Shown here: positions 7,661 through 51,699 of the stretch, piece after piece
How positions within the stretch are numbered: the stretch's first letter is position 1
Layout of the letters: the number at the start of each line of letters is the position of its first letter
From: Catellatospora methionotrophica
GTDB taxonomy: Bacteria > Actinomycetota > Actinomycetes > Mycobacteriales > Micromonosporaceae
Length of the DNA stretch: 64,000 bases
Assembly: GCF_011297335.1 (NCBI RefSeq)
Contig: NZ_JAAOTJ010000007.1
Coordinates: 62,001 to 126,000, forward strand
Direction: 5' to 3'
Made by a program: the position numbers and the translations under genes
Notes under the pieces: generated by a model
What the model was told of the DNA's origin: nothing
The model's input: the letters and a program-made list of their open reading frames with translations, nothing else
Databases searched by the model: none

Positions 7661-7685
7661 CTACCCGCACGGGGGGTATACAAAC
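7661..7685 (-). promoter_or_regulatory. SigB/SigF-type promoter before transketolase
   Basis: Read on the minus strand the element is GTTT, a 15-base spacer, then GGGTAG. This fits the stress-sigma consensus GTTT-N15/16-GGGTA(A/C/T) except for the last base. It points at tkt-tal, with its -10 end 164 bases before the tkt start. The region 7498-7860 otherwise shows no gene. Confidence 0.6.
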
Positions 7686-7860
7686 GTTTTGCCCACCGCG
7701 ATGCCGTGGCCCCGAAAGCGCGGCGATGGCTTTCCATGGCGGGCTACCCGCCAACGCGGGGCCACTAGATCGATGATTCAGGGTTGCTGCTCGCCGTGCC
7801 GGAACGGTGCTCCACTGTTGTGACGAAATGCCGCAACGTTCGGCGATTGTCGCGCTCAGC

Positions 7861-8028
7861 GTGTCACGAACCGAACGTACGGTTAACGCGCCGTCGGAGA
7901 AGGTGTTCGGGGTGCTCTCCGACGGGTGGAGCCACGCCAACCGGGTGGTGGGCACCGCCCACATCCGCGACGTTGACCTCGAGTGGCCGGCGGCCGGCAG
8001 CAGGCTCGACCACCCGCCCGGTGTGGGA
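7861..8028 (+). pseudogene. Truncated SRPBCC-family (polyketide cyclase-like) gene
   Basis: From the GTG at 7861 the frame gives about 56 residues that look like the N-terminus of an SRPBCC lipid-binding protein: VSRTERTVNAPSEKVFGVLS, then a Trp and a HIRDVDLEWP stretch, as in the START/polyketide-cyclase family. The similarity stops near LDHPPGVG at about 8028. The frame then runs on as the antisense of the alpha/beta hydrolase with no family sense. A whole member would have about 150 residues, so roughly two thirds is missing. The break coincides with the end of the neighbouring hydrolase's natural fold. Confidence 0.6.
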
Positions 8029-8802
8029 TTTATCGGCGGCTGCCTGCCGAATCAGGTCCGACACCGTTCGCGGCATGGTGTGTGGGAAGGAATGCGCTCC
8101 GGCGATCGTAACCGCGGATCCTTCGGTGGCCATGGCTGCGAGACGGTGTGCCCAACTCGGCGGCGCGAGGTGGTCATGCTCGCCGGTGATGACCAGGACC
8201 GGGCAGGACACGATCGGCATGATCTGCTCGGGGCGGTCATCCATTCCGGATCGCGCGAATTGCAGCAGGTTGCGGATTCCGGCACGCGCAAAGTCTGGGC
8301 ACACGGCGATGCCGGCGGAAACCGACTCATGTATCAATGTCCTGGCCAGCTTGCGCGTTAGCCCCCATGGCCGTCGAGCGGCGGGCACGAGGGTGGGTCC
8401 AGCCATAACGAGCATGTCGACCAGCCCCGGGGCCTTCACCGCCGCGCGCAAGGCGGCCTGCGCCCCCGTCGAGTGACCCAGCAGGATGACGGGCGTGGTC
8501 GTGTGGTCCCGGAGCCAGGCGGCGACCAGATCGGCGATGTCCTCGATCGTCGGAGCGCAGGAAGCCGGGCCGCTGTGGTGGTAGCCGGGCAGGTCCAGCA
8601 GCACGCACCGGGTCCGGGAACCGATGACCGTCATGGTGCGGCGCATCATTCCGACGGCGCCGAGGCCGGCGACGATCACCACGACCGGCATTTCGGGGCG
8701 CGCTTCGCCTGCCACTAGCGAGTCCAAGACGCCCGTGGCCGTCGGGTGCTGCTCGCGCCGATAGGGCTGCGATGCCCCGCGCCCCGCACGTTCCTGTCGC
8801 AT
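7864..8802 (-). CDS. Alpha/beta hydrolase with aberrant C-terminus
   Basis: This 312-residue protein has an alpha/beta hydrolase fold. The oxyanion segment is VVIVAGLGAVG, the nucleophile elbow is LLGHSTGAQAA, the acid is in VITGEHDHLAPP, and the catalytic His is in GAHSFPHTMP. The substrate cannot be told. The native fold should end near SDLIRQAAAD, around 8030. The last 55 or so residues are read from the antisense of a broken SRPBCC gene, so the original stop codon was probably lost in a deletion or recombination. A GTTT-N15-GGGCAT element upstream suggests stress control, weakly. Confidence 0.75.
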   Translation of the reverse strand: MRQERAGRGASQPYRREQHPTATGVLDSLVAGEARPEMPVVVIVAGLGAVGMMRRTMTVIGSRTRCVLLDLPGYHHSGPASCAPTIEDIADLVAAWLRDHTTTPVILLGHSTGAQAALRAAVKAPGLVDMLVMAGPTLVPAARRPWGLTRKLARTLIHESVSAGIAVCPDFARAGIRNLLQFARSGMDDRPEQIMPIVSCPVLVITGEHDHLAPPSWAHRLAAMATEGSAVTIAGAHSFPHTMPRTVSDLIRQAAADKSHTGRVVEPAAGRRPLEVNVADVGGAHHPVGVAPPVGEHPEHLLRRRVNRTFGS

Positions 8803-8831
8803 GGCGCACCCGTTCTTCGATTGCTGAGGGC

Positions 8832-8856
8832 ATGCCCGATGCCGCCGTGACGAAAC
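8832..8856 (-). promoter_or_regulatory. Possible SigB-type promoter, imperfect
   Basis: On the minus strand this reads GTTT, 15 bases, GGGCAT, one base away from the usual GGGTAT. It lies 30 bases before the hydrolase start, a sensible distance. The mismatch is at an important -10 position, so confidence is low. Confidence 0.3.
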
Positions 8857-9372
8857 CGGATGCCTGACAGATCACTCGCGGGGCAGCCTTCGCTGCAGCC
8901 ACGGCGGGGTGAGAGTGACCGATCGTTGGCGTCGATGATTCGCGACACGCAGGTATTTTCACCGCGTTAGGCCAATTGTCTGTTTATGGTGTGCTCATGG
9001 TGCCGATGGGGCGGTCCTGAGGGGTGGCCGTCCCATCGACGCTGTCACGCCGACCGGTGCCCGCGTCCGACGAGCATTGCCCGCTTGACGTGCTGCGACG
9101 TTTGGCGATATATGGGTCGTCTGCGGCGTAGGGTAGGGCGGCGTCCGGCCAACCGCCAGATCAGGTCTGGTCGACGAGGTAGCTGTGAGCAGCGCGGAGC
9201 GGCTCACGGCGAGCCCTGGGCAACCGGAAGTGTTGCTGGCTGAAGGGCTGTAGCCGGCGAGGCGGCGACCGCGATATCACCGCCGGTTCGAACGTGTCGG
9301 GTGTCACAACAAATCCCAGATTCGCCGACCCTGCCGTGGCAATAGGTGCACGGTCATCGATGAGGGCTGGCA
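8857..9372. other. Intergenic stretch without a recognisable gene
   Basis: About 515 bases between the hydrolase and a small membrane protein. Short open frames exist on both strands but none has typical codon bias, a ribosome site or a familiar sequence. Base composition is slightly lower in G+C than the surrounding genes. No repeat or RNA structure was recognised. Confidence 0.4.
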
Positions 9373-9675
9373 ATGGGCCAAGAAATGTTCTCGTTCGTCG
9401 ATCTGCTCGTGGTCGGAGCCGTCGCGCTGGCGCTGGGCGCCCTGGCGACCGTCGTCTTCCTGTCCTCGACAGTGCATGAGATGCGCGCCGCCAGGTCAGC
9501 CGCGACCCGACAGCGCCGCCACGCGGCCGAACTGCTCCGCCTGGCCGAACAGCCCGGTGCTTTCACCAGCGGTACCTGGGACGCCGACCTGCTGCGCCGA
9601 GTGCGGCCTGAGCGGCTGCCGCTCAATCGCGTGAACGCCCGCCCGGTGTCTGGACCCCGTCACCGTGGGCTGTGA
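9373..9675 (+). CDS. Small single-pass membrane protein, unknown function
   Basis: This predicted protein has 100 residues. The first 10 are polar, then a hydrophobic segment (VVGAVALALGALATVVFL) makes one membrane helix. A basic, Arg/Ala-rich cytoplasmic helix and an unstructured tail follow. GAGG lies about 10 bases before the ATG. I do not recognise the family. It sits in the stress and partner-switching block, but nothing in its own sequence ties it to that. Codon bias is good through residue 75 and weaker after. Confidence 0.5.
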   Translation: MGQEMFSFVDLLVVGAVALALGALATVVFLSSTVHEMRAARSAATRQRRHAAELLRLAEQPGAFTSGTWDADLLRRVRPERLPLNRVNARPVSGPRHRGL

Positions 9676-9730
9676 GCGAGCGCCTGGCATCACGTCGAGA
9701 TCGTGAACGCGGTGCCGAGGGCCGGGTTCA

Positions 9731-9946
9731 TCAGGTTGCGTCGGGCGTGTCTGGTGGTGGTGCCGTCAGGGTGTCGGGCTCGCCGGTCCGGCCTCTCGGC
9801 ACTCGCCGGGCACCGATCGCCTCCTGCCGCGAAGTGAACCGGCCGGACAGGACGGCTGGTTCGCTGATGATGCGTGCAGCGCGGTGCCGCAGCTCGCCCA
9901 ACACCTCCGCGTCATCCCACAGGGCGTGGCCCGAAGCCGACGTCAT
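9731..9946 (-). CDS. Possible small protein, unknown
   Basis: A 71-residue frame follows the STAS gene on the same strand, starting 36 bases after its stop. The first 50 residues look protein-like, with an amphipathic helix around DDAEVLGELRHRAARI; the end is Pro/Thr-rich. There is no good ribosome site and no family is recognised. It may be a real small gene, a remnant, or chance. The rest of 9676-9982 shows nothing else. Confidence 0.25.
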   Translation of the reverse strand: MTSASGHALWDDAEVLGELRHRAARIISEPAVLSGRFTSRQEAIGARRVPRGRTGEPDTLTAPPPDTPDAT

Positions 9947-9982
9947 AAATCATCGCTGACGGCTCTCGTGCGGTCACCGGGG

Positions 9983-10432
9983 TCAGGGGACCGATCGAGG
10001 GGAGCCCGGTGCTGCGCGTCGTGGGGGCGCTGGCTGGCGTAGACACCGGATTCCCGCTCTGACGTATCGACCGCGGCTGGACCGTGGCTGACCGGCTACG
10101 GGCTCGGCCGGGGCCGCCGCAGGTGCGAGTAGCGCATCGGCGCGGGCCGTGTGTATCGCGTCGCGTACCGACACCCGTGCGGCGGTGAGGCTTAAGGTAA
10201 TGCCGCGGCGCAGCGCCGTCGCGCGGCACAGTGTCAGCATCGCGATGCCGGCGATGTCGACGGCGTCGACGTCGGCCAGGTCTACCGTGAGTCGGCCCGC
10301 GTCGCAGCGATCCAGGGCCAGGCCGACAGCATCGCCGAATTCCTGAGCGGTATCGGCGTCGAGACTGCCATGAACGGTCAGATACAGCCCTACGGGTGAG
10401 CGGTACAGGCGCAGCTGCAGTCGTCGGGTCAT
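9983..10432 (-). CDS. STAS-domain protein (anti-anti-sigma-factor-like)
   Basis: This protein has 149 residues, and residues 1-100 form a STAS domain like SpoIIAA/RsbV. Such proteins bind an anti-sigma kinase and release its sigma factor when unphosphorylated. The core strand and loop read LTVDLADVDAVDIAGIAML. At the place where SpoIIAA has its phosphorylated Ser before Gly, this protein has Ala (DIAG), so it may not be switchable by phosphorylation. The ATG at 10432 gives the domain a normal start; longer frames add only non-domain sequence. The C-terminal 50 residues are Arg/Pro-rich and of unknown role. The anti-sigma-kinase-like gene is 1.2 kb away. Confidence 0.75.
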   Translation of the reverse strand: MTRRLQLRLYRSPVGLYLTVHGSLDADTAQEFGDAVGLALDRCDAGRLTVDLADVDAVDIAGIAMLTLCRATALRRGITLSLTAARVSVRDAIHTARADALLAPAAAPAEPVAGQPRSSRGRYVRAGIRCLRQPAPPRRAAPGSPRSVP

Positions 10433-10475
10433 GGCGGCTGGCTCCAACAGACGGCGGGACGGGGGCGCACCCGCT

Positions 10476-10500
10476 TTCCCCATATCTGACACCGGCAAAC
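10476..10500 (-). promoter_or_regulatory. Near-consensus SigB-type promoter before STAS gene
   Basis: On the minus strand: GTTT, 15-base spacer, GGGGAA. One base differs from GGGTAA. It stands 44 bases before the STAS start, a good distance. Confidence 0.35.
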
Positions 10501-10940
10501 TGTCCCGGAGTAACGGTTGCGCATCACCGGAGGGCGGCCGTGAACTGATGCGGTAACGGCGACGTGACTCGGGGGCGTGCTGTTGTGCCGCAGTAGTTCC
10601 GCTGACGCGCACACCACCGACAGGCCACCCGAAACCCGGAATGCAACCGGCGGACACCGGACACGCCGCGATGCTCACCGTCGCGACGTTCCGGGCCGGT
10701 GGCGTCGATCTGAACGGCTGACTCGACGCCCTTCATGAAGTTCGGGAAGACCCGACCTGGGTCCACTGGTTGCAGCCACGCGGACTGGCATGTGGACGTC
10801 TACCGACTCTGTCACCGTGCTCGTCAGGGGCCTCCCGACGAAAATGTCCGAAAGGTCGTTACCGGATGAGTGGGGTCTCAAGCGGCGGCCGACGCGCCGA
10901 CGGAATGCGTGCGAACCCAGCCGCCGCGTCAAACGCCGTC

Positions 10941-10966
10941 GTTGAGCCTGTTGCCCGCTGGGGTAT
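10941..10966 (+). promoter_or_regulatory. Near-consensus SigB-type promoter before second STAS gene
   Basis: On the plus strand: GTTG, 16-base spacer, GGGTAT. The -10 is perfect and the -35 has one change. It is 145 bases from the GTG start of the STAS gene. Confidence 0.4.
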
Positions 10967-11111
10967 TCCGCGCCCAGGACACGATCAGAACCGAAGATGG
11001 TTTGACCGGGCCCCTGACGTTGCAATACGAGTAGAATCTTTCATGTTGCTTGATTGATCTTCCACTGCCCCGGACCTCGGCAGCCTTGTCGGACGAGCCA
11101 GAGGTGAGGAC

Positions 11112-11528
11112 GTGGACAAGCACCCCATGACCATTAGTGTCGCTCGCGGTGGTGAAGGGCGAGTGGCCTGCATGTCTATAGCTGGCGACGTCGACTTGGT
11201 CGACCCTGTCGATGTGGACATCGCTCAGCGCCAACTGGACAGCGTGTCCTGCGAGGTTCTGTACGTAGACCTCACCAGCGTCACCTTCGGCGGATCCGGC
11301 CTGATTCACTACCTCTACAACGTGTCGGAGCAGCTACCGGAGGCGGCGATCACGCTGTGCGGACCATCGGCGATCACCCGCCGGGTCCTCGAACTGGCCG
11401 GCCTGAACCGGCTTGCCGCCATGTGCGACCGCCTGCCGCAAGACTGGGCGTCGGCGAACGCCTCGCCAGCCTCCGACCGGCTGGTCGTGGAACGGGTCGC
11501 ACCCGCCTGGCCGCAACCCGCGACCTGA
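11112..11528 (+). CDS. STAS-domain anti-anti-sigma factor
   Basis: This 138-residue protein has a STAS fold over residues 5-105. The central strand is EVLYVDLTSVTFGGSGL. Here a Ser directly before Gly is kept at the position phosphorylated in SpoIIAA and RsbV, unlike the STAS protein on the left. It is therefore a plausible phospho-switched partner of the anti-sigma-kinase-like protein encoded convergently just downstream (62 bases apart). The GTG at 11112 is preceded by a GAGGTGAGGA purine stretch. The last 25 residues are a Pro/Ala-rich tail. Confidence 0.82.
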   Translation: MDKHPMTISVARGGEGRVACMSIAGDVDLVDPVDVDIAQRQLDSVSCEVLYVDLTSVTFGGSGLIHYLYNVSEQLPEAAITLCGPSAITRRVLELAGLNRLAAMCDRLPQDWASANASPASDRLVVERVAPAWPQPAT

Positions 11529-11590
11529 CCAGCTCAAGACATCAATCGACGTGAGCGCCGTCCTGTGGGAGCTGACAGACACGAGCCTGT

Positions 11591-12004
11591 TCAAGCGTCG
11601 ACGGCTGATGCATTCAGGTCCAGCACCAACCGCCACACGTTCACTCCGGGCCGACTGTAGAGGTCGACCCGGTCACACACCTCCTCGACGATCCCCAGTC
11701 CCCAACCGCCAGGCGATTCGGTGCAGCATCCAGGCGGCTCGAAGGTGCCGGTGTCGGTGACTTCGCTGATGAGCGCGCCGTTCTCGCTCCACACGCGCAC
11801 CGCGCCCCCTTCCGACGTATGACGCAGAACGTTCGTGGCGATCTCACTGATCGCGACTCTCAGTGCCGGTAGCCGTTCAGCAGACAGCCCGACGCTCTGG
11901 GCGCATTCGCACACGAATGTCCGTACGCGACCGAGGTCGCCGGCGGCGTCGAAAACGAGAACCGGCACGCCAGAGGGAGGTGGTACGAAGGGTTTGGTCA
12001 GCAT
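11591..12004 (-). CDS. Anti-sigma-factor-type ATPase/kinase (RsbW/SpoIIAB-like)
   Basis: This 137-residue HATPase domain resembles RsbW. The N box reads AISEIATNVLRHTSEGG with the Mg-binding Asn. The G1 region is EVTDTGTFEPPG and the G2 region is GGWGLGIVEEVCDRVDL. Such proteins bind a SigB-type sigma factor and phosphorylate a STAS antagonist. The ATG at 12004 follows GGTGAAG and leaves a normal 25-residue lead to the domain; the longer frame upstream is not needed. A perfect GTTT-N15-GGGTAA promoter lies 102 bases upstream, so the gene may be under the sigma factor it controls. No sigma gene is in the window. Confidence 0.85.
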   Translation of the reverse strand: MLTKPFVPPPSGVPVLVFDAAGDLGRVRTFVCECAQSVGLSAERLPALRVAISEIATNVLRHTSEGGAVRVWSENGALISEVTDTGTFEPPGCCTESPGGWGLGIVEEVCDRVDLYSRPGVNVWRLVLDLNASAVDA

Positions 12005-12105
12005 GTTCACAACTTCACCGCCCCGCGCTATTCGACCTCTACCGGCCGTGATGCTCCGTGGCTCCAGGACGGTGCGATAGCCGCCTATTACCGTAAAAGG
12101 GTTAT

Positions 12106-12130
12106 TTACCCAATGTCGGTGCTGGCAAAC
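12106..12130 (-). promoter_or_regulatory. SigB/SigF-type promoter before anti-sigma-kinase-like gene
   Basis: On the minus strand: GTTT, 15-base spacer, GGGTAA. This is an exact match to the stress-sigma consensus. It lies 102 bases before the ATG at 12004, leaving a 5' leader of about 95 bases. Confidence 0.7.
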
Positions 12131-12177
12131 CACACGCATCGACACGAACACAATGCCTCAGACTCTGGCCTTAGATG

Positions 12178-12218
12178 GCTGCTGCCCCGTGCGCGTGTCG
12201 CGGGCACGGGGCAGCAGC
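12178..12218 (-). terminator. Hairpin after DUF4142 gene
   Basis: A 15-bp perfect stem (12178-12192 with 12204-12218) and an 11-base loop lie 20 bases after the DUF4142 stop. There is no T run. It separates this gene from the promoter of the anti-sigma-kinase-like gene. Confidence 0.65.
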
Positions 12219-12237
12219 TGACAGCTGATGGCCGAGA

Positions 12238-12780
12238 TCACTGCGGCTTCACCCCGATGCCGGGGGCAGCCTTCACCAGGGCCTCATGGTGTGCGGTGAT
12301 GACCGGCAGGGCCGCCTCAGCAGCCTGCTTCACCTGTGCGGCCTCGCCCTTGTCGATTTCCTGCTGAGTCGCCTTCATCGACTTGGTGTGCGCCGCGAGC
12401 TGCTGCTCGATCCACATCTTGTTGAACTCGTCTCCTGCCGCGGCGGCCTGGAGCTTGTCGGCCACGGCCTTCTGCTCGGCGTTCGGCTCGGCCGGCAAGG
12501 TCACGTTGAGCTGCTGCGCCAAGGCTGTCAGCGATGCGTCGAGTTTGGTGTGGTCGGCGACGAACCGCTGGCCTAGTTCCTTCACCTCGGCGGAACTGCT
12601 CTTGTCCTGCGCCATCTTCCCGGTCGCGATCTCGGCGAGATTGGCCTGGTGCGCCGCGACCATCCAGGCGGTGTCCTGCTCTGACGGCTGCATGACGACC
12701 GCAGGCGCCGCGGTGGCGCTCGCCGTGACCGCCATGGCCGCGCCGGCCAGCAAGACTGCCATCCGTCTCCAGAACCTCAT
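12238..12780 (-). CDS. Secreted DUF4142 protein
   Basis: This 180-residue protein has a signal peptide at residues 1-26 (basic FWRR start, hydrophobic core, then ATAAPA). A four-helix DUF4142 domain follows, a ferritin-like bundle of unknown function common in secreted stress proteins. Family features visible are HQANLAEIATGKMAQDKSSS, ELGQRFVADHTKLDASL, and a third helix around FNKMWIEQQLAAHTKSMKAT. GGAGGGGG lies nine bases before the ATG at 12780. A GTTT-N17-GGGTAG element upstream suggests stress control. The gene is divergent from the alcohol dehydrogenase. Confidence 0.88.
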   Translation of the reverse strand: MRFWRRMAVLLAGAAMAVTASATAAPAVVMQPSEQDTAWMVAAHQANLAEIATGKMAQDKSSSAEVKELGQRFVADHTKLDASLTALAQQLNVTLPAEPNAEQKAVADKLQAAAAGDEFNKMWIEQQLAAHTKSMKATQQEIDKGEAAQVKQAAEAALPVITAHHEALVKAAPGIGVKPQ

Positions 12781-12822
12781 TGTGCTCAGCCCCCTCCGTG
12801 GCTTGCATTCCATCCCGAACCA

Positions 12823-12849
12823 CTACCCGTCGCGGAGCAACCCGCAAAC
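12823..12849 (-). promoter_or_regulatory. SigB-type promoter before DUF4142 gene, wide spacer
   Basis: On the minus strand: GTTT, 17-base spacer, GGGTAG, 43 bases before the start codon. The spacer is one or two bases longer than in the other copies, so strength is uncertain. Confidence 0.45.
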
Positions 12850-12863
12850 GGATTGGCCTGCTG

Positions 12864-12888
12864 GTTTGCCACCCGTACACCAGGGAAC
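12864..12888 (+). promoter_or_regulatory. Near-consensus SigB-type promoter before alcohol dehydrogenase
   Basis: On the plus strand: GTTT, 15-base spacer, GGGAAC, which differs by one base from GGGTAC. It lies 72 bases before the dehydrogenase start and faces away from the DUF4142 promoter 14 bases to its left. Confidence 0.4.
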
Positions 12889-12959
12889 GGACATATATGG
12901 CAAATAGCTGCCCGCAGGGTGGCGGCAGCGCGGCTGATGAGCACGGAAGGCGGCCTCCG

Positions 12960-14141
12960 ATGAAGGCAGTGGTGTGGCACGGCAAGCGTGACGTACGCGT
13001 GGACACGGTCGCCGACCCCGTGATCCAGGAACCCACCGACGCGGTCATCAAGGTGACCTCCACCGGTATCTGCGGCTCCGACCTACACCTGTACGAGGTG
13101 CTGGCGCCCTTCATGGCGGAAGGCGACATCATCGGCCACGAACCGATGGGCATCGTGGAGGAGGTCGGCTCCGCGGTCACCCGGCTCAAGCCCGGCGACC
13201 GCGTCGTGGTCCCGTTCCAGATCGCCTGCGGCGCCTGCTTCATGTGCGACCAGAACCTGCAGACCCAGTGCGAGACCACCCAGGTGCGCTCCGAGGGCAT
13301 GGGTGCCGCCCTGTTCGGCTACACGCGCCTGTACGGACAGGTCCCCGGCGGCCAGGCGGAGTATCTGCGGGTGCCGCAGGCGCAGTACGGGCCGATCACC
13401 GTGCCTGCCGGACCGCCCGACGACCGGTTCGTGTACCTGTCCGACGTGCTGCCGACGTCGTGGCAGGCCGTCGAGTACGCGGCCGTGCCGCAGGGCGGCA
13501 CCCTGCTGGTGCTGGGCCTGGGCCCGATCGGCGACATGTGCTCCCGCATCGCGCTGAATCGCGGCGTGGGCCGGGTCATCGGCGTCGACCCGGTGCCCGA
13601 GCGGCGTGACCGCGCCATGGCCCGCGGCGTGGAGGTCCTCGATCTGGAGGACCAGGACACGCTGGTCGCCCGCATCCGGGACATGACCGGCGGTCGCGGG
13701 CCCGACTCCGTCATCGACGCGGTCGGCATGGAGGCGCACGGCTCACCGATCGCCAGGGCGATGCAGCAGATGACCGGCGTCCTGCCGGACGCCTGGGCCG
13801 CCAAACTCATGGAGAACGCGGGCATCGACCGCCTGGCCGCGCTGCAACTGGCCATCGAGGCGGTCCGCCGTGGCGGCACCATCTCGATCATCGGCGTGTA
13901 CGGCGGCATGACCCACCCGCTGCCCATGATGACCCTGTTCGACAAGCAGATCCAGATCCGGATGGGCCAGGCCAACGTGCGCCGCTGGGTCGACGACATC
14001 CTGCCGCTGCTCACCGACGCCGACCCGCTCGGCGTGTCCGGCTTCGCCAGCCACCGCCTGCCCCTAGCCGACGCGCCCGCGGCATACCAGCAGTTCCAGG
14101 AAAAGAAAGACGGCTACATCAAGGTACTGCTGCAGCCGTGA
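12960..14141 (+). CDS. Zinc-dependent alcohol dehydrogenase (formaldehyde dehydrogenase-like subfamily)
   Basis: This 393-residue medium-chain dehydrogenase uses NAD(P). The catalytic-zinc Cys is in GICGSDLHLY, and GHEPMGIVEEVG supplies His and Glu. The structural zinc Cys cluster is CGACFMCDQNLQTQC. The Rossmann motif is VLGLGPIGDM near residue 190. The insertion around QMTGVLPDAWAAKL resembles the glutathione-independent formaldehyde dehydrogenase branch, so it may clear small aldehydes or alcohols. The ATG at 12960 has GGAAGG nine bases upstream. A stress-type promoter element precedes it. Confidence 0.9.
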   Translation: MKAVVWHGKRDVRVDTVADPVIQEPTDAVIKVTSTGICGSDLHLYEVLAPFMAEGDIIGHEPMGIVEEVGSAVTRLKPGDRVVVPFQIACGACFMCDQNLQTQCETTQVRSEGMGAALFGYTRLYGQVPGGQAEYLRVPQAQYGPITVPAGPPDDRFVYLSDVLPTSWQAVEYAAVPQGGTLLVLGLGPIGDMCSRIALNRGVGRVIGVDPVPERRDRAMARGVEVLDLEDQDTLVARIRDMTGGRGPDSVIDAVGMEAHGSPIARAMQQMTGVLPDAWAAKLMENAGIDRLAALQLAIEAVRRGGTISIIGVYGGMTHPLPMMTLFDKQIQIRMGQANVRRWVDDILPLLTDADPLGVSGFASHRLPLADAPAAYQQFQEKKDGYIKVLLQP

Positions 14142-14453
14142 GTGACCGGCGCCAGACGCAGGCGATTCCACACGCGTAACCGAGACGAAGGCACATCTGG
14201 ATCGGTGACGGTAAACCCGCGGTCAGGAGTTGAGCACCGAGGCCGGGCTGCGCTGCGCGAGCTGCTCACGCGAGCCGGCGTCGAGCGCCAACGTATGCAA
14301 GCGGCTCTGACGACCTGCCCGGCGGACGCGCACGAGACACAGGTCTTTGACGCCGTGCCGGTCTACCAGTTCGACGGCACCGTGTCACCGGACGGCGGAA
14401 TGGCCGGGACCGAGAACCCGCGCGAGCGGCTGGCGTCGCCGCTGGCCGATTGA
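14142..14453 (+). CDS. Possible small protein, unknown
   Basis: A frame starts with GTG directly after the dehydrogenase stop and gives 103 residues. A middle part, ALRELLTRAGVERQRMQAAL, looks like a helix of a real protein; the start and end do not. A shorter start near 14202 (GTG) is possible. I do not recognise it. It may be a translationally coupled small gene or chance reading. Confidence 0.3.
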   Translation: MTGARRRRFHTRNRDEGTSGSVTVNPRSGVEHRGRAALRELLTRAGVERQRMQAALTTCPADAHETQVFDAVPVYQFDGTVSPDGGMAGTENPRERLASPLAD

Positions 14454-14497
14454 TGGCTGCCGAAGGCGAACAGCGGTAACTCATACGTCTGACCAAC

Positions 14498-14536
14498 GCA
14501 GCGGTCCGCGGTGCCAACGGCGCCGCGGACCGCTGC
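14498..14536. terminator. Bidirectional hairpin between convergent genes
   Basis: A perfect 14-bp GC-rich stem (14498-14511 with 14523-14536) and an 11-base loop. It lies 12 bases after the catalase stop and serves the plus-strand transcripts too. No strong T run is present. Confidence 0.7.
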
Positions 14537-14547
14537 TGTGAGGTGTT

Positions 14548-16983
14548 TCAGGCGGCGATACCGTCTACCGGCCGGTCGTAGTGGCGGTGAGCGGCGATGG
14601 CGATGACCATCTCGTCGACGAACTGCTGGTCTGCGTCGGTGTCGGGTGCCAGGAAGACCACACCGTCCAACGCGCCGGCGCTGGGCTTGCTGGCCGGCCC
14701 GGCGATGCGGTCGGAAGCCTCGTACACCGGCAGCCGCGCCGCCTGAACGAGGCGGTCCCCGACCCCGAGAACGCCGAGCGCCTTGGCGTGCTTGTAGGCC
14801 TCGGCGACGAAGTGCACCGCGTAGCCGTCGCTGACCAGTTGGTCGAGCGCTGCGTCGCCGTCGGCGACGACGACCGCGTCATACAGCACGGACGCAACGG
14901 TGTTCATCGCCCGGTCGACCGGCAGCGCCGCACCGTCGGCGGTGTTGACGGCCCCATCGACCAGTCCGAGCAGTTCGACCACCGCGCCCGCTGCCGTCAG
15001 GCCGTCGCGCACGGTTTCGAGACTGGCGGCCTCGACGCCGTCGGCCACCAGGATCGCGACCTTGCGGCCGATGACTCCCGTGCTGCCGGGCATGCTGGCC
15101 TGGCTCAGCGCCGGCGACATCCGACCGGGGTTGGGCGGCCCGGCAGCGGGGGAGGGTACGCCGATCCCGGCGGCCACCGCAACGGCAAGCTGGTGGTCGA
15201 TCTGATTGAGGTGCTCGACCATCAGCTGCCGGATGTGCGGGCGGGTCACCTTGCCCAGTTCGAAGCGGTAGGCGGCGATGATGTGCTGCTTCTCCCAGGC
15301 CGCCATGCTGTTCCAGAACAGGGTCGCCTGGCTGTAGTGGTCGGCGAAGGTCTCGGACCGTTTGCGTTCCTTGATGCCGTCGACGTGCTCCGGGGTGTGC
15401 ACGAACGCCCCGCCGCCGGCGCCCGGGACGACCGGACAGCCGCCCCCGAGCGAGTTGGGATGGTAGTTGGCCTGGCCCAGCGGGATCTCGTGCTGGTGGA
15501 AGCCGTCCTGCTGGTGGTTGCGCACCGGCGCGAGCGACCGGTTGATCGGGATCTGGGCGAAGTTGGGCCCGCCGAGGCGGGTGAGCTGGGTGTCGAGGTA
15601 GGAGAACAGCCGTGACTGCAGCAGCGGGTCGTCGGTGAAGTCGATGCCGGGCACGACGTTCTGCAGGCAGAAGGCAACCTGCTCGGTCTCGGCGAAGAAG
15701 TTGTCCGGGTTGCGGTCCAGGACCAGGCGCCCCACGGGCACGACCGGCACGACCTCCTCTGGGATGATCTTCGTCGAGTCCAGCAGGTCGATGTCGTCGA
15801 AGGCGAACTCGTCGCTCTCGGCGATCAGCTGCACGCCGAGTTCGTACTCCGGATAGTTGCCTGCCTCGATCGACTCCCACAGGTCGCGGCGGTTGAAGTC
15901 CGGGTCCTTGCCGGAGATCTTCTGCGCCTCGTCCCAGACCAGCGAGTGCACGCCCGCTAGGGGCGTCCAGTGGAACTTGACGAAGGTGCGGGTGCCGTCG
16001 GCGGCGACCAGCCGGAATGTGTGCACGCCGAAGCCCTGCATGGTCCGGAAGCTGCGCGGCAGCGCCCGGTCCGACATCAGCCAGATCACGTGGTGCATGG
16101 TCTCGGGCTGCAGGGTGACGAAGTCCCAGAATGTGTCGTGGGCCGAGGCGGCTTGGGGGATCTCGTTGTGCGGCTCGGGCTTGACCGCATGGATGACATC
16201 GGGGAACTTGATGCCGTCCTGGATGAAGAACACCGGCATGTTGTTGCCCACGAAGTCGTAGACGCCCTGGCCGGTGTAGAACTTGATGGAGAACCCGCGT
16301 ACGTCGCGCGGGGTGTCGGTGGACCCGCGTGAGCCCTGCACGGTGGAGAAGCGGACGAACACCGGCGTACGCACGTCGGGATCGGTCAGGAAGTTCGCGG
16401 CGGTGTAGCGGGCCAGCGAGGTGTCGTAGGGCTGGAAGTAGCCGTGGGCACCCGAGCCGCGGGCGTGCACGACCCGCTCAGGGATGCGCTCGTGGTCGAA
16501 GCGGGTGATCTTCTCGCGGTGGTGGAAGTCCTCCAGCAGGCTCGGGCCGCGCGGGCCGGCTCGCAGGCTGTTGTCGGTGTCCTCGACCCGGATGCCCTGG
16601 TCGGTCGTCAGCGTGGTGTCGAGCTTGTCGACCCGGTGCGCGTTGAGTTGCAGGATCTTGGCGTCACCGCCGGGGGCAGCGGACGCTGCGGCGGCGCGGT
16701 CGGCGCGCTTTTGCGCTTCGGCGACCGCGGCGGGCGCCGAGCGTGACCCGGCCTTCTTGGCAGGCACGGCCTTGGTGAACGGAGCTGCCTTGGCGGCGGT
16801 CACCTGAGCGGCAGCAGTCTTGGCGCTGGGCCGCCGCGACGGCGATGTCTTCTTGGCCGGCGTTTTCGTGGCCGAGGTGGCAACCTTCGCCCCACGTTCT
16901 GCCGCGGCGGCGTTCTTGGCCTCTGCGCCCCCCTCGGCTGCGGCCTTCTTGGCCGCCTTTTTCGGTTTGGCCCGCTCGCTCAT
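14548..16983 (-). CDS. katE: Large-subunit catalase with histone-like N-terminal tail
   Basis: This 811-residue haem catalase is of the HPII/KatE type and splits hydrogen peroxide. From about residue 110 the family sequence begins: [20 protein letters not shown], then [20 protein letters not shown] with the distal His, [15 protein letters not shown], and [18 protein letters not shown]. The proximal Tyr region is [19 protein letters not shown]. The C-terminal 170 residues form the extra flavodoxin-like domain of large catalases ([15 protein letters not shown]). Residues 1-110 are unusual: Lys/Ala-rich with [12 protein letters not shown] and [16 protein letters not shown], like the tails of actinobacterial HU and histone-like proteins. 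The ATG overlaps the stop of the upstream hemerythrin gene. Confidence 0.95.
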
Positions 16984-17543
16984 CCCCGCACCCCATTGCC
17001 GTCGGCTTTGCCCAACACGTCCCGCAACCGGTCGAACACTTGGTCAGGAGGCCCAGCCAACGGGCCCGGCTGTTGCCCCGAACCGGCCTGGGCGTGCTCT
17101 GCCAGCAGCGCCTGAGCACGGGCCACCACCACCGCCATGCGGGACAGTTCCGCCGGGTCGCTCACCTCCCGCAGACGCAGAAACTCCAGCTCCTCCTCGG
17201 CCTCGGCGTGGGCCGACACCGCATCGCGCAGCGCGGCCAGCTTGGCGTCGAACTCGGGGTGGTCAACGCCGAGCTCGTACAGCTCTGCCAGAGCCTGCTT
17301 GGCGTCGGCCTCCTCGGCCAGCCGCGGCGGCACCACCTGATCCCCGTCAGGCAGCTCCTGTTCAGCCAGCGGATGCACCAGCAGCTGCTCGATGTTCTCA
17401 TGCAGTGCCAGCGTGCCGACGAGCTCGGTGAACAGCTCCTGACGATGCGCTCCGTCCGCGGACTCGACCTGGGCGAACAGCATCTTCACCTGCTGATGTT
17501 GCCCTAGAAGGGTGTCGATCACATCTTGCTGAGCCGTGGTCAT
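16980..17543 (-). CDS. Hemerythrin-domain protein
   Basis: This 187-residue protein has an HHE cation-binding four-helix domain that should hold a di-iron site and bind oxygen or sense redox state. Likely ligands are in LLGQHQQVKML, LALHENIEQLLVHP, DHPEFDAKL and SAHAEAEEELEFL. The ATG at 17543 was chosen because MTTAQQDVIDTLLGQH is the usual family start, with GGAG upstream. Its TGA overlaps the catalase ATG by four bases, so the two are translationally coupled. A matching stress promoter lies 88 bases upstream. Joint expression with catalase points to oxygen or peroxide defence. Confidence 0.9.
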   Translation of the reverse strand: MTTAQQDVIDTLLGQHQQVKMLFAQVESADGAHRQELFTELVGTLALHENIEQLLVHPLAEQELPDGDQVVPPRLAEEADAKQALAELYELGVDHPEFDAKLAALRDAVSAHAEAEEELEFLRLREVSDPAELSRMAVVVARAQALLAEHAQAGSGQQPGPLAGPPDQVFDRLRDVLGKADGNGVRG

Positions 17544-17630
17544 ACAGAGTGCTCCGTTCCTTCGCACCGACTTGCGATGCATTCAGCGGCACACGGAAGT
17601 AGCAAAGCTGGCAGATTGCCTGAAAGTACG

Positions 17631-17655
17631 CTACCCATGAGGATTGGAAGCAAAC
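17631..17655 (-). promoter_or_regulatory. SigB/SigF-type promoter of the hemerythrin-catalase operon
   Basis: On the minus strand: GTTT, 15-base spacer, GGGTAG. It lies 88 bases before the hemerythrin ATG. The same GGGTAG form occurs before transketolase and DUF4142. Confidence 0.65.
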
Positions 17656-17695
17656 TGGAATTCAGGAAAAATCGGGCAGGCCTGGTATGCGCCGA

Positions 17696-17908
17696 TCAGG
17701 CCAGGTCGAGGTCGCGGCCCCAGGTCAGCCGGGTGCGGCCGAGCGTCCATAGGGTTACCGCTGCTGCCGCCACGGCCGTGCCGATCACGATGATCCGCCT
17801 GCCGTCGGCCATGGTGGAGATGGTCAACGGCGACCAGGGGCCGGTGGCGGGCTCCATCTGCAGTGCGCAGATCAGCGTGACGAACGGGATCGCCCGGCCG
17901 GTCGATCG
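17696..17908 (-). pseudogene. C-terminal remnant of a membrane protein
   Basis: An open stretch of about 70 codons, strongly biased to G/C in third positions, ends with TGA at 17696. It reads as the end of a membrane protein: IPFVTLICALQMEPATGPWS, then a helix around IIVIGTAVAAAAVTLW and a polar end TWGRDLDLA. There is no start codon with a ribosome site and the upstream side runs into the neighbouring oxidase gene. I take it as the tail of a gene whose front was deleted. It could also be a very short real gene starting at an internal ATG. Confidence 0.35.
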
Positions 17909-17948
17909 CGGGTCAGGCGAGCGGTTCGGGTGCCGCCGTACGGCGCCG

Positions 17949-18470
17949 CTACGCCGTGACGAGTTTGCCGAAGTCGGGGGCGTACACCGTCATCCAGTGC
18001 GGGCGCACCCGGTAGTAGACGACCTCGCGCTCCCAGTCGAAGGCATCGGCGCCGTAGAAGTCCTTGAAGTAGGCGAGCAGGTCCGGCCAGTCCGCTGCCG
18101 GTTCGCCGTGTTCGGGGTTGAGGATCTCGGCTGTGCCGTGGGTGAACACGCCCAGGTCCTCGCCGCGCAGATGGGCGGCGCTGACGGCGGGGCGGGCGGC
18201 GAGATGGCGGGCCTTGGCGGCCGTGCGCGCCGTGCCGAAGTGCCACTGTCCGTGCAGGAAGTGCCCGTCCACGCCGCTGATCCGGGGCTCACCCTTCGCG
18301 GTGACCGTCGACAGGGCGAGCGTGCACATCCCGGTCAACACCTGGGTGAGCTGGGTCGCGCTCAGGGTGCGCGCGCTGTTGATGATCGAACGGAGATGCC
18401 GCGTCGACCGGGGAAGCGACGTGTCGAGCAGGGCTTGGAGTTCGCTGAGTTCTTCCTGCGTTTCGCGCAT
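17949..18470 (-). CDS. Pyridoxamine 5'-phosphate oxidase-family protein
   Basis: This 173-residue protein has a split beta-barrel fold that binds FMN or F420. The family start is recognisable: ATQLTQVLTGMCTLALSTVT, then KGEPRISGVDGHFLHGQWHF, with FGTARTAAKARHLAARPAVS following. A C-terminal WPDLLAYFKDFYGADAFDWE and YYRVRPHWMTVYAPD segment is typical of the subfamily of uncharacterised general oxidoreductases. The substrate is unknown. The ATG at 18470 gives a full-length product. It stands alone between the membrane-protein remnant and a methyltransferase. Confidence 0.8.
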   Translation of the reverse strand: MRETQEELSELQALLDTSLPRSTRHLRSIINSARTLSATQLTQVLTGMCTLALSTVTAKGEPRISGVDGHFLHGQWHFGTARTAAKARHLAARPAVSAAHLRGEDLGVFTHGTAEILNPEHGEPAADWPDLLAYFKDFYGADAFDWEREVVYYRVRPHWMTVYAPDFGKLVTA

Positions 18471-25646: not shown

Positions 25647-26555
25647 TCAGTCGTGGACGGCCATGTGCAGGCGGACGGTGGTCGCGCCGGGGCGGGCGTG
25701 CAGGCGTACCAGGTCGCAGTGCAGGTGGGCGGCCAGCAGGGCGGGCGCGGCGGGCGGGAGCGGGTCGGCGAACTGGCCCGCGTCGCGCAGCTGGCACACC
25801 ACCAGGTCGCGCTCCGGCCAGACGCTCACCGCGCCCGGGGCGCCGGTGCGGGTCAGGGTGCCGGTGGCCAGGTCCGACACGATGTCGGCGAGGGTGTCGC
25901 GCCGGTCCGGCTTGAGCCCGGCGGTCGTCGCGTGGCCGGTCACGAACGCGCGCAGCCCGGCCAGGTCGTGTACGGCGTCGTACCGCATCGTCGCGGCGTG
26001 GGGCGGGGGAGCGGGGAGCGGCGGATGGCAGGACAGCGCGGTCTGGCGCGGGTCGGCGTAGGCGGGACTCGGCCGGCGCTCGCCGCGCAGCAGCAGCTCA
26101 GGATGGGTGCGCAGGGCGTCGGAGACCATGTGCGGGTCCAGATTGGCCGCGTCGCACGGGCACAGCACCGCCGTGTCGCGGTCGGTGAAAGCGAGGTTGA
26201 CCAGCGCCTCGTGGGCCACGCAGGCCGGATACTCCATGAGGCCGCGGCCCGGCCACAGCGGCTCGGCGACGATCGCCGTGCGGCGGCCCGGGAAGCCGTC
26301 GGCGAAGGCCAGCAGCACGCCCGGCAGGATCCGGCCCGGGTTGCGGCCCGCGACGGTCAGGTCGGTGAAACGCACCCGCGCGGCGTGCGAGCCGAGGCAG
26401 TCACGCAGGATCTCCAGCTTCGCGCTGGGCACGGCGACCAGCACCGGCTGCCCGGCGGCGAGAGCGGTGTGGATGAAGGCCAGGGTGCCGCTGACGTACT
26501 CGGCGACTCCGCGGTAGGGGAAGCCGACGTGCTCGCGCGGTGCCGGTGTGGACAT
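25647..26555 (-). CDS. MEDS-domain protein with degenerate anti-sigma ATPase domain
   Basis: This protein has 302 residues. Residues 1-165 form a MEDS sensory domain (HVGFPYRGVAEYVSGTLAFI, AVPSAKLEILRDCLG), as in actinobacterial RsbA-like regulators. Residues 190-302 resemble an HATPase anti-sigma domain, but key parts are lost. The N box VSDLATGTLTRTG has Gly in place of the Mg-binding Asn. The glycine-rich G2 box is replaced by PPAAPALLAAHLHCDLV. It may therefore bind a partner without kinase activity. A perfect stress-sigma promoter lies 92 bases upstream. Confidence 0.8.
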   Translation of the reverse strand: MSTPAPREHVGFPYRGVAEYVSGTLAFIHTALAAGQPVLVAVPSAKLEILRDCLGSHAARVRFTDLTVAGRNPGRILPGVLLAFADGFPGRRTAIVAEPLWPGRGLMEYPACVAHEALVNLAFTDRDTAVLCPCDAANLDPHMVSDALRTHPELLLRGERRPSPAYADPRQTALSCHPPLPAPPPHAATMRYDAVHDLAGLRAFVTGHATTAGLKPDRRDTLADIVSDLATGTLTRTGAPGAVSVWPERDLVVCQLRDAGQFADPLPPAAPALLAAHLHCDLVRLHARPGATTVRLHMAVHD

Positions 26556-26646: not shown

Positions 26647-26672
26647 TTACCCCACCCCGGAAGGCGCTAAAC
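26647..26672 (-). promoter_or_regulatory. SigB/SigF-type promoter before MEDS gene
   Basis: On the minus strand: GTTT, 16-base spacer, GGGTAA, an exact fit to the stress consensus. It lies 92 bases before the ATG. Confidence 0.7.
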
Positions 26673-45344: not shown

Positions 45345-45364
45345 GGTCTCCTCCTTGCGCCGAA

Positions 45365-45389: not shown

Positions 45390-45391
45390 AC

Positions 45392-47901: not shown

Positions 47902-47912
47902 CCGCCGCGTGG

Positions 47913-49091: not shown

Positions 49092-49207
49092 GCTGCCCGG
49101 ATCACCGCCTGCGCCGTCCGGGGCCGTTGTCACGGGACGGCGAGCGGTGATCGACGGCGATATCCTGTGTCCCGCCACGGGGTCGGCTCGGCAGGATGGG
49201 GATCCAC

Positions 49208-50302: not shown

Positions 50303-50317
50303 CGCGCACAGGCAGCG

Positions 50318-50347
50318 AAAAGGGGCGCCCGATCGGGCGCCCCTTTT
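50318..50347. terminator. Strong bidirectional terminator
   Basis: A perfect 13-bp stem (50318-50330 with 50335-50347) with A and T runs at its ends and a GATC loop. It lies between the membrane-protein gene and the convergent DUF6131 gene. Confidence 0.9.
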
Positions 50348-50363
50348 CACGTCGAAGATCCTG

Positions 50364-50519
50364 TCACCAATAATGCCGTCGTCCACCGACGGGACGGCCC
50401 ACCGCGCCCAGGATCCACAGGATCGCGCCGACGATCAGCAGGATCAGGCCGATCGTCCAGAGAATGCTGATGTGGAGGAAATACCCCAGCAGCAACAGAA
50501 TCAGGCCTAGAACGAGCAC
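50364..50519 (-). CDS. DUF6131 tiny membrane protein
   Basis: This 51-residue protein consists of two membrane helices (LGLILLLLGYFLHIS and LWTIGLILLIVGAILWILG) and a short tail ending GGRRHYW. That layout and ending fit the DUF6131 family of actinobacteria, whose function is unknown. The GTG at 50519 has GGGGAG six bases upstream; the longer frame adds unrelated residues. A GTTT-N16-GGGTAC promoter lies 43 bases upstream, so it is probably a stress protein. Confidence 0.8.
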   Translation of the reverse strand: MLVLGLILLLLGYFLHISILWTIGLILLIVGAILWILGAVGRPVGGRRHYW

Positions 50520-50561
50520 TTCAATCTCCCCACTCGAGGAACATTCCCCAACAGCGATCAG

Positions 50562-50587
50562 GTACCCGGCACCTGGCGGGCCTAAAC
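50562..50587 (-). promoter_or_regulatory. SigB/SigF-type promoter before DUF6131
   Basis: On the minus strand: GTTT, 16-base spacer, GGGTAC, an exact consensus match, ending 43 bases before the start codon. Confidence 0.75.
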
Positions 50588-50609
50588 CGACGACCACACG
50601 GCGCGGTGA

Positions 50610-51011
50610 TCACACAGCGGCGGTCCCGACCGGCTGCTGGGCGAGCTCCTGCGCGAGCTGCCGAGCCACCCGCCCGTGCATCGCGACGGCGCGCAGCCGC
50701 AGCAGCGCCACCTGGGTGACGACTTCGGACATCGGGCCGGGCCGGTGCGCCCAGAACGTGCTCAGCAGGGGCTGGGTCAGGTCGGCCAGGGCGCTGGGGT
50801 CGTGATCGGGCGGCAGCGCGTCCACGGACTGCCGGGTGACGGCGATGGCCCGGTCCAGGCCCGCCTGCCAGGCCGGTCCGACCCGGCCGGTGCCCGGGTA
50901 CGCCGGGTCGTTGCGCCAGGCCTGCCAGCGGTCGAGCAGAGTGATCAGCTCGGCGCGCAGGTCCGCCCGCTCCTCATTGCTCGCCGTGATGAGCTGTTCA
51001 CTGACTGTCAT
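50610..51011 (-). CDS. Hypothetical helical protein
   Basis: This 133-residue soluble protein is predicted to be mostly helical, with many charged residues in the first third (EERADLRAELITLLDRWQAW) and a hydrophobic helical end. No family is recognised. A TATGAT hexamer sits nine bases before the ATG, so the transcript could be leaderless; no ribosome site is visible. It lies within an island of tiny stress-type genes. Confidence 0.65.
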   Translation of the reverse strand: MTVSEQLITASNEERADLRAELITLLDRWQAWRNDPAYPGTGRVGPAWQAGLDRAIAVTRQSVDALPPDHDPSALADLTQPLLSTFWAHRPGPMSEVVTQVALLRLRAVAMHGRVARQLAQELAQQPVGTAAV

Positions 51012-51106
51012 GTCAACAGATCATAGGGTCGCGACGGGCTCGCGGCGGGCACAACACGGGATGTCGCCGAGATGATCAGGATACACCCGGCATCCTCCGC
51101 GAAGGC

Positions 51107-51132
51107 GTTTGTGCAGGCCGTGGCGCGGGTAC
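51107..51132 (+). promoter_or_regulatory. SigB/SigF-type promoter placed at the start codon
   Basis: On the plus strand: GTTT, 16-base spacer, GGGTAC. The -10 ends only 9 bases before the ATG at 51142, so transcription should begin at or next to the start codon. Confidence 0.7.
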
Positions 51133-51141
51133 GCACTCGTC

Positions 51142-51324
51142 ATGACCGATCACAGCCCGGAGGAGTACGAGCCGATCGAGCCCGCCGGAGGCACCGGCCT
51201 GGAGCACACCCGGGACGAGTCGCACCGTGACGAGCAGCGTCGGCAGGAGGACACCGAGCGTCTCAGCGAGGAGCGCACCGACCCACGCAACCCGTCCGAG
51301 CCCTTCTCGGGTTCCGAGCACTGA
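51142..51324 (+). CDS. Small hydrophilic acidic protein
   Basis: This 60-residue protein is almost entirely polar and probably disordered (EEYEPIEPAGGTGLEHTRDE, then RRQEDTERLSEERTD). It has no hydrophobic core. No ribosome site precedes the ATG, which fits the very close stress promoter and a leaderless message. Similar short, charged proteins are common in actinobacterial stress regulons, but I cannot name the family. A strong terminator follows 47 bases later. Confidence 0.65.
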   Translation: MTDHSPEEYEPIEPAGGTGLEHTRDESHRDEQRRQEDTERLSEERTDPRNPSEPFSGSEH

Positions 51325-51370
51325 GGACCGGTGGCCGGTACGGCGCGGTAGATCCGGCGCCAGCACCCGA

Positions 51371-51406
51371 CGAGAGGCGCCGCCCCGGCCGGGGCGGCGC
51401 CTCTCG
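51371..51406. terminator. Strong bidirectional terminator
   Basis: A perfect 16-bp stem (51371-51386 with 51391-51406) and a GGCC loop between the convergent 60-residue gene and CsbD. Confidence 0.88.
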
Positions 51407-51430
51407 TGTCGGCAACGTCGACGTCCGTCG

Positions 51431-51637
51431 TCAGCGGCGCAGCGCGTCCTTGGCCGCGTCCTTGGCGTCGCCCATGGCGTCCTTGGCCTTCTCGCCGACC
51501 TTCTTCGTCTTCGCCGAGGCCTGGTCCATCTTGCCCTCGGCTTCCAGGCTCTCGTTGTCGGTCATCTTGCCGGTGGTCTCTTTGGCCTTGCCCTTGACGT
51601 TCTCGGCCTCGTTGCTGATCTTGTCCGAGATACCCAT
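51431..51637 (-). CDS. CsbD-family stress protein
   Basis: This 68-residue protein matches the CsbD family, general-stress proteins first seen in Bacillus under SigB control. The typical order is KISNEAENVKGKAKETTGKM, then LEAEGKMDQASAKTKKVGEK and a Lys/Ala/Asp-rich end. It is soluble, charged and probably disordered or helical. The ATG at 51637 has GGAG six bases upstream. A GTTT-N15-GGGTAC promoter lies 37 bases before it, in line with SigB-type control. Confidence 0.9.
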   Translation of the reverse strand: MGISDKISNEAENVKGKAKETTGKMTDNESLEAEGKMDQASAKTKKVGEKAKDAMGDAKDAAKDALRR

Positions 51638-51674
51638 GTCCACTCCTTCGAGACAGCGGATGCCTCCACTCCCC

Positions 51675-51699
51675 GTACCCGGAACGGATCCCGCGAAAC
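51675..51699 (-). promoter_or_regulatory. SigB/SigF-type promoter before CsbD
   Basis: On the minus strand: GTTT, 15-base spacer, GGGTAC, an exact consensus match 37 bases before the ATG. CsbD is a known SigB target in other bacteria, which supports the reading of all the other copies. Confidence 0.78.

Follow-up and report, generated by a model that had tools for sequence, protein, structure and literature searches.

A probable SigB/SigF-type general-stress regulon in Catellatospora methionotrophica, part of it on an island next to a tRNA-Lys gene

A 64,000-nucleotide stretch of the Catellatospora methionotrophica genome, hereafter called the window (C54:62001-126000, i.e., 0.76% of a genome of 8.39 Mb in 56 contigs), carries one and the same two-box element, GTTT-N15/16-GGGTA, before transaldolase-transketolase, hemerythrin-catalase, RsbW-like, MEDS-domain and small-protein genes. 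An earlier note on this DNA had read the elements as matching promoters of a SigB/SigF-type stress regulon, which raises the question of whether genes so different are indeed read by a common stress sigma factor, given that the window itself encodes none. On the sequence evidence assembled here, it is highly likely that the sites are promoters of such a general-stress regulon, read by at least one of four SigB/F/G-class factors encoded elsewhere in the genome, and that part of the regulon sits on an acquired island.

GTTT-N15/16-GGGTA was taken as the strict motif; the reversed motif served as control, and dinucleotide shuffles provided the null for the window. All seven sites that had been reported were present, one base off the quoted starts, and they account for every strict match in the window. 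Each lies upstream of a gene on the correct strand, at 10-102 nt for six of them and 164 nt for tkt-tal, measured from the end of the box to a plausible start codon:

7662-7685, minus strand: tkt-tal promoter, GTTT-N15-GGGTA, 164 nt upstream of the start
12107-12130, minus strand: rsbW promoter, GTTT-N15-GGGTA, 102 nt from box end to start
17632-17655, minus strand: hemerythrin-catalase promoter, GTTT-N15-GGGTA, 88 nt to the preferred start, with an earlier ATG at 49 nt
26648-26672, minus strand: MEDS-kinase promoter, GTTT-N16-GGGTA, 92 nt to the start
50563-50587, minus strand: DUF6131 promoter, GTTT-N16-GGGTA, 43 nt to the start, counted on the printed sequence
51107-51131, plus strand: promoter of the 60-residue gene, GTTT-N16-GGGTA, 10 nt to the start
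51676-51699, minus strand: csbD promoter, GTTT-N15-GGGTA, 38 nt to the start

The seven sites compare with a mean of 0.13 in the shuffled windows (largest shuffle, 1), and neither the interior of genes nor the wrong strand of the window showed the motif at a comparable density. A pattern search of the whole genome returned 36 strict against 4 reversed matches, and each of the ten same-genus comparison genomes, all Catellatospora (11 with our own, G000), returned 32-45 against 5-10; four of the 38 matches in G002 are one identical 25-mer, presumably resembling antisense 16S rRNA. The window holds 7 of the 36 sites, and one further site lies 2 kb outside it. These eight fall in one 64-kb span, for which 20,000 random placements gave a maximum of six; with the csbD triplet counted once, six sites remain (p 0.0001), it being noted that the placement treated 34 contigs of unknown length as equal. 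A weaker cluster exists in G007 (five in 64 kb, p 0.011). As a separate observation, a denser region was seen in G003 (C19:1-80000, loci L233-L236), where 80 kb contain 16 matches to a relaxed motif, one part of the region being a copy of an rsbW-DUF4142-adh module. Among the 29 sites outside the window, 25 have a candidate frame downstream; 20 of these frames were scanned with Pfam, 14 matched a family at E 0.001, and 13 did so above the curated cut-off. The families include PAP2 and Crp and, of stress type, DJ-1, MEDS-STAS, glycine-betaine binding, MscS, WhiB, PNPOx and a second hemerythrin.

For six of the seven promoters, we judge the footprints among homologous sequences to be decisive, as the boxes are kept and most spacers have diverged. 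Before csbD, the 60-residue gene and the DUF6131 gene, the strict site was present in 11/11 Catellatospora genomes each, our own included, and at csbD it stayed within 38-48 nt of the gene; the neighbouring control genes p50610 and lytR gave 0/22 (a third, p49196, was left out of scoring, being at an edge or absent in 11/11 genomes). For the remaining three genes, with 30 loci per gene and identity limits that were set after the listing had been viewed, a strict site precedes MEDS-kinase in 8/8 homologues of at least 63% identity (own included; 88-92 nt upstream), rsbW in 5/5 of the homologues examined down to 59% identity (a count that takes in our own gene and its C6 copy; a split fragment in G006:C7 was left out of the rsbW counts), and hemerythrin in 5/7 homologues of at least 64% (own included), the other two showing CTTT and ATTT, each a single substitution at -35. 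Among the other loci, strict sites were found at 0/22 for MEDS, at 1/25 for rsbW (L115), and at 0/23 for hemerythrin; four of these 23 carry GTGT versions, and one, an 82%-identical fragment of 44 residues in G008 (L090), has no site. Mean pairwise identity of the spacers, calculated on eight genomes per gene, was 0.67 for csbD, 0.60 for DUF6131, 0.46 for MEDS and 0.98 for the 60-residue gene; the last value overstates conservation across the genus, because the comparison left out G004, G008 and G009, which differ at csbD, DUF6131 and the 60-residue gene.

The other 19 csbD loci fall into 16 with GTTT-N16-GGGCA or GGGAA, two with no site and one with no match. The 16 (L142-L157) are paralogous csbD genes, and their variant element stands about 38 nt upstream; it could mark a different SigB-class factor.

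Weaker versions of the element, which had been claimed for five more genes, were found in relaxed searches:

8833-8856, minus strand: before the alpha/beta hydrolase gene at 7864-8802, GTTT-N15-GGGCA
10476-10500, minus strand: before STASa, GTTT-N16-GGGAA, with an ATG 43 nt downstream
10941-10965, plus strand: before STASb, GTTG-N16-GGGTA, inconsistent among homologues
12824-12849, minus strand: DUF4142 promoter, GTTT-N17-GGGTA
12864-12887, plus strand: alcohol dehydrogenase (adh) promoter, GTTT-N15-GGGAA, 72 nt before the ATG at 12960

The GGGAA-type adh site recurs in G003 and G006, and the N17 site of DUF4142 in G003. The 11 loci searched contained no full homologue of STASa or of the hydrolase. 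STASb is inconsistent as a footprinted target: its own C6 copy and the G002 copy have no site, and that of G003 has GTTG-N15 at another distance.

The consensus agrees with published promoters of SigB-type factors. The SigF consensus of M. smegmatis is GTTT-N14-19-GGGTA (PMC4694148), and SigB homologues of S. coelicolor (PMC8346170) and sigma-8 of S. avermitilis (PMC5402319) use promoters of the GNNT-N14-16-GGGTAY type. Closest in kinship is Actinoplanes sp. SE50/110, of the same family Micromonosporaceae, whose experimentally derived sigma-H motif (G/C-GTTT-A/C, about 14.6 nt, GGGTA; PMC11205660) is nearly the same. The fit that had been asserted for SigB/SigF is thus borne out for M. smegmatis, S. 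coelicolor and Actinoplanes.

Candidate factors are present in the genome. With the SigB/F/G profile (TIGR02980), four genes scored above the cut-off, on C2, C7, C21 and C23 (the last by 0.15 bits), and none of the 28 profile matches falls in the window, in agreement with the earlier statement that it has no sigma gene. At C7, a GTTC-N16-GGGTA site (L275, 7974, minus strand) stands directly before a gene of the endonuclease/phosphatase family; this gene immediately precedes the SigB/F/G gene with the best score and runs the same way. A GTTT-N16-GGGCA site is also found on the 3' side of this sigma locus. The GTTC-type site may point to autoregulation.

The genes behind the promoters were then placed on the chromosome. 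The earlier note had described the regulon as lying in one stretch; the sites do share a promoter class, but the stretch is composed of a core block and an insertion, and its treatment as a single unit was rejected. The features concerned are as follows:

3948-4021, plus strand: tRNA-Lys(CTT), left boundary of the island, with an identical tRNA in the empty-site relative
4022-17960, no strand: 13.9-kb insertion between tRNA-Lys and a PNPOx-like gene
4096-7497, minus strand: transaldolase-transketolase pair (Pfam), extra copies, with other copies at C31
9983-10432, minus strand: STASa, STAS-domain gene (Pfam)
11112-11528, plus strand: STASb, like the anti-sigma-F factor antagonist RsfB (8ih8, E 1e-5), with Pfam STAS just below cut-off
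11591-12004, minus strand: RsbW-like anti-sigma kinase gene (rsbW), HATPase_c_2 (Pfam)
14548-17543, minus strand: hemerythrin-catalase operon (Pfam), with a long catalase of 811 aa and the hemerythrin start taken at 17543
25647-26555, minus strand: MEDS-kinase gene, core, with a MEDS domain and a C-terminal RsbW-like region
50364-50543, minus strand: DUF6131 small protein gene, core (Pfam)
51142-51324, plus strand: 60-residue protein gene, core (reading frame)
51431-51637, minus strand: CsbD-like protein gene, core (Pfam)

The part with the four right-hand strict sites, from MEDS to csbD, has its gene order kept in G002, G003 and G007 and is core chromosome; the part with the other three, from tkt-tal to hemerythrin, lies on the insertion. 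Homology to G010 ends at 4021 and resumes at 17961, with only about 120 nt between them in G010, an empty site. Since the sequence of 17961 follows the G010 tRNA after this short interval, 4022-17960 is an insertion relative to G010, and comparison with G002 gives the same right edge. The insertion has a GC content of 0.683, lower than that of the remaining window (0.728). It contains seven sites of the form GTTT-N15-17-GGG(T/A/C)A, all before genes on the right strand, and none of the reversed form, as compared to 4 against 1 in the rest of the window and 0 against 3 in a background of 13 stretches (260 kb). This background was hand-picked after the strict-site list was known and is, therefore, a mildly favourable control (0 strict sites, with about 1.1 expected at the genome average), which leaves the genome-wide 36 against 4 unaffected.

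From a core gene (2364-3767) to the DUF2795 gene (22138), the whole interval is hypervariable among relatives, and no strict site was found in it in the stretches from six relatives (that of G001 does not take in the left edge). A partial copy (39-49 nt) of the 3' part of tRNA-Lys lies about 1, 14 and 17 kb away in G003, G002 and G006, respectively; G001 has two partial copies 18 kb apart and no full tRNA in the stretch covered, and neither G007 nor G010 has one at this locus. These copies, in four of the six relatives, resemble remains left by integrating elements, and tRNA-Lys(CTT) looks like an insertion hotspot in the genus (window 3948-4021; loci L222, L227, L314, L318, L320). Pieces of the island occur at three other places: G003:C19 has STASb-rsbW-DUF4142-adh and hemerythrin-catalase, G006:C13 has rsbW and adh, and C6 of our own genome has p9373-STASb-rsbW. 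A site precedes rsbW at each of the three places, adh at two of them and DUF4142 at one. Also in relation to C6, about 130 nt of the window (10698-10835) resemble DNA at the beginning of a gene of SRPBCC type, which on C6 follows a strict site; this piece is probably a gene remnant.

Several of the targets resemble partner-switch proteins, and it was asked what they may do to the sigma factor. The gene that had been called anti-sigma-kinase-like does have a HATPase_c_2 domain, and its product aligns, weakly (E 0.005), with RsbW 6m36 around the Glu/Asn box. The 'MEDS regulator' of the earlier note was incompletely described: the MEDS domain is present, and it is the only one listed by Pfam, but the C-terminal part matches RsbW-like kinases as well. 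STASb has a serine that aligns with residue 63 of the RsfB chain 8ih8 (counted on the alignment), and STASa has none in the segment corresponding to the antagonist serine, by a weak alignment (E 0.069). Elsewhere in the genome, a MEDS-STAS gene and the second hemerythrin gene are likewise found behind strict sites (L003 and L025). In M. smegmatis, rsbW3, which depends on SigF, has been proposed to exert a positive feedback on SigF by way of RsbW1 (PMC7693655), and a hemerythrin represses SigF (PMC4295536); because these two act on SigF, feedback by the island proteins on their sigma factor is plausible by analogy. Yet the RsbW-like, STAS and MEDS-kinase proteins may act on another sigma factor or on none, in which case their genes would be targets and not parts of a feedback. 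RsbW-like proteins are numerous, as the island rsbW has 14 matches in the genome for only four SigB/F/G factors, and none of six neighbours of the sigma genes scanned with Pfam was an anti-sigma kinase. Set against the rsbW3 precedent and the serine that STASb retains at the RsfB position, this alternative to feedback is a substantial possibility, somewhat short of an even chance.

A number of observations weigh against the regulon as proposed and need to be considered together. The 12-kb neighbourhoods of the four sigma genes contain no strict site. Thirteen of the 29 sites outside the window lie within crudely called long reading frames (16 lie outside such frames), and part of the genome-wide set is for this reason probably chance. 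The spacer of the 60-residue gene is nearly invariant among 8/11 genomes; its whole 25-mer is identical in seven and has one change in an eighth, and three differ. This 25-mer is matched at up to three mismatches in 9 of 300 family genomes (own included), the only match outside the genus, in G214, breaks both boxes, and G005 has a second copy with three mismatches on C16. A second factor or a feature of the transcript may use the near-frozen spacer. As regards the island, no repeat of the tRNA-Lys 3' end was found at its distal end or elsewhere in the window, and no integrase was recognised among the island proteins scanned with Pfam, from which some small frames were left out; because of these two negatives, we infer its mode of arrival rather than read it from the DNA.

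The weight matrix, for which 44 sites of relatives were used and each gene counted equally, has to be read with similar care. The check that had been proposed, a matrix with shuffled controls, was carried out as the genome pattern search with its reversed control and as a matrix search of 400 kb; it bore out the excess, less strongly at low thresholds. At threshold 15 there were 7 matches in the window (shuffles, 0.4), 3 in the flanks on C54 (140 kb) and 3 in the background; at 12, the figures were 9 (shuffles, 1.6), 6 and 6; and at 10 the contrast narrowed to 11 (shuffles, 3.3), 8 and 14. The seven strict sites are the best matches in the window, and at threshold 11 all ten window matches precede a gene on the correct strand. 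The training set, however, consists of homologues of six of the seven genes, so that only the tkt, DUF4142, STASa and hydrolase sites were new to the matrix.

The objections are most serious for tkt-tal. Its site scores high in the matrix (18.9) and lies far upstream, at 164 nt. The island carries second copies of tkt and tal, for which the 10 other genomes of the genus have no close counterpart; an 80%-identical tkt occurs in 2/396 phylum genomes (L283, L284), and the best tal match outside our own genome is 64%, among the matches listed for 200 family genomes, own included. No strict site was found at the tkt copies of the 10 other genomes or at our own C31 copy, 2 of these 11 having a GTTC-N16-GGGTA near-match. 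The count was also 0/29 in a set of tkt loci that included L283 and L284, where nothing was seen; a few of the 29 show TTTT, GTTC or GTGT versions. Judged by its sequence comparisons, tkt-tal is the weakest of the seven sites, and it finds no support as a conserved regulon member, no examined homologue having a strict site. The joint regulon originally described is, therefore, upheld for the six promoters that recur before homologues and is unsupported for tkt-tal.

How far, then, do other explanations account for these data? If the matches had arisen by chance, or belonged to another regulator with a GGGTA-like box, the reversed control, by which about 4 of the 36 genome matches are expected anyway, and the unconserved tkt site would find a ready explanation. 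It would then have to be accepted that two boxes at fixed spacing were kept at csbD, DUF6131 and MEDS while the spacers between them diverged, and that the consensus happens to coincide with published SigB/SigF/SigH promoters; with the footprints speaking against it for six of seven sites, we regard this explanation as very improbable.

A far stronger contender is that the promoters are real and only their grouping is accidental, a core cluster and an unrelated insertion having become neighbours without being linked in function. The groups are of different origin, related modules are found elsewhere in G003, in G006 and at C6 of our own genome, and the six relatives' stretches show no strict site in the tRNA-Lys interval. 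The clustering is far beyond that of random placement, though a single insertion beside a core cluster would suffice to produce it; and, sharing one promoter class, both groups would respond together whatever their history. Accidental grouping is accordingly given nearly even standing, and it leaves the reading of the sites as general-stress promoters in place.

Under the latter reading, a stress signal would free a SigB-class factor from its anti-sigma kinase by partner switching, RNA polymerase with the freed factor would bind at the GTTT and GGGTA boxes, and expression of the targets would go up jointly. Those on the core chromosome would be csbD, DUF6131, the 60-residue gene and MEDS-kinase; those on the island would be catalase, hemerythrin, adh, DUF4142, rsbW and, probably, STASa and tkt-tal. 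CsbD is a SigB target in other bacteria, and CatB of Streptomyces is a large-subunit catalase. The catalase and hemerythrin would act against peroxide, and those targets that are RsbW-like, STAS or MEDS-kinase proteins might form feedback loops. We infer that the island was acquired as DNA already wired to the stress sigma factor of the host, and that it works because it carries the host's promoter code.

The promoter class and the types of target are known from M. smegmatis, Streptomyces and Actinoplanes, and the arrangement as an island is the new part. The likeness to the SigF regulon of M. smegmatis extends from the consensus to its targets: genes for hemerythrin and catalase (MSMEG_6212/6213), for a hydrolase of the alpha/beta type and for dehydrogenases are among them, as is rsbW3, an RsbW homologue, and many of the listed targets fall at MSMEG_1758-1804 (PMC4694148, PMC7693655). 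There, however, sigF itself (MSMEG_1804) lies in the midst of these genes, whereas the present window has no SigB/F/G gene and part of its cluster is an insertion at a tRNA; the terms transketolase and CsbD do not occur in PMC4694148. With the Streptomyces SigB systems, in which osmotic adaptation involves a catalase (catB/katB) and the uptake of osmoprotectants (PMC8346170, PMC5402319), the promoter type and catalase are shared, but S. coelicolor has nine SigB homologues (PMC8346170) against four above the family cut-off here. Actinoplanes sigma-H is a homologue of a Streptomyces SigB-class factor linked to osmotic stress, and differs in that its named upregulated genes are for transport, trehalose and membrane functions (PMC11205660); the terms CsbD and catalase do not occur in that paper.

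By analogy, the nearest counterpart of the island would be the stress islets of Listeria monocytogenes. One of these, SSI-1, is dependent on SigB. Like the island, SSI-1 and SSI-2 place stress genes at a hypervariable hotspot between core genes, with no recognised mobility genes; they differ in phylum and in gene content, their hotspot lies between lmo0443 and lmo0449, and the SSI-2 genes were not SigB-dependent (PMC5541211). Among the papers listed by our literature search there was no study of a comparable stress-promoter island in actinobacteria, nor of a general-stress regulon in Catellatospora.

A bolder proposal is that the island is a mobile plug-in at tRNA-Lys, with the host's stress promoter before nearly every unit, its own RsbW-like and STAS proteins and no sigma factor, which would use and retune the resident sigma factor and add a stress-specific branch of the pentose-phosphate pathway. 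We put this forward tentatively, with distinctly less than even confidence; if true, the plug-in island would be of a recurrent kind, given similar modules at other positions in further species.

Taken together, the data provide a footprinted general-stress regulon in Catellatospora, the promoters of which are ready-made reporters for deciding which of the four SigB-class factors acts. They suggest that stress genes can be acquired ready-wired to the existing stress switch of the host. If this is true, a general stress response can be extended by horizontal transfer while its regulator stays behind, and the partner-switch proteins carried along could alter the stress response of the host.

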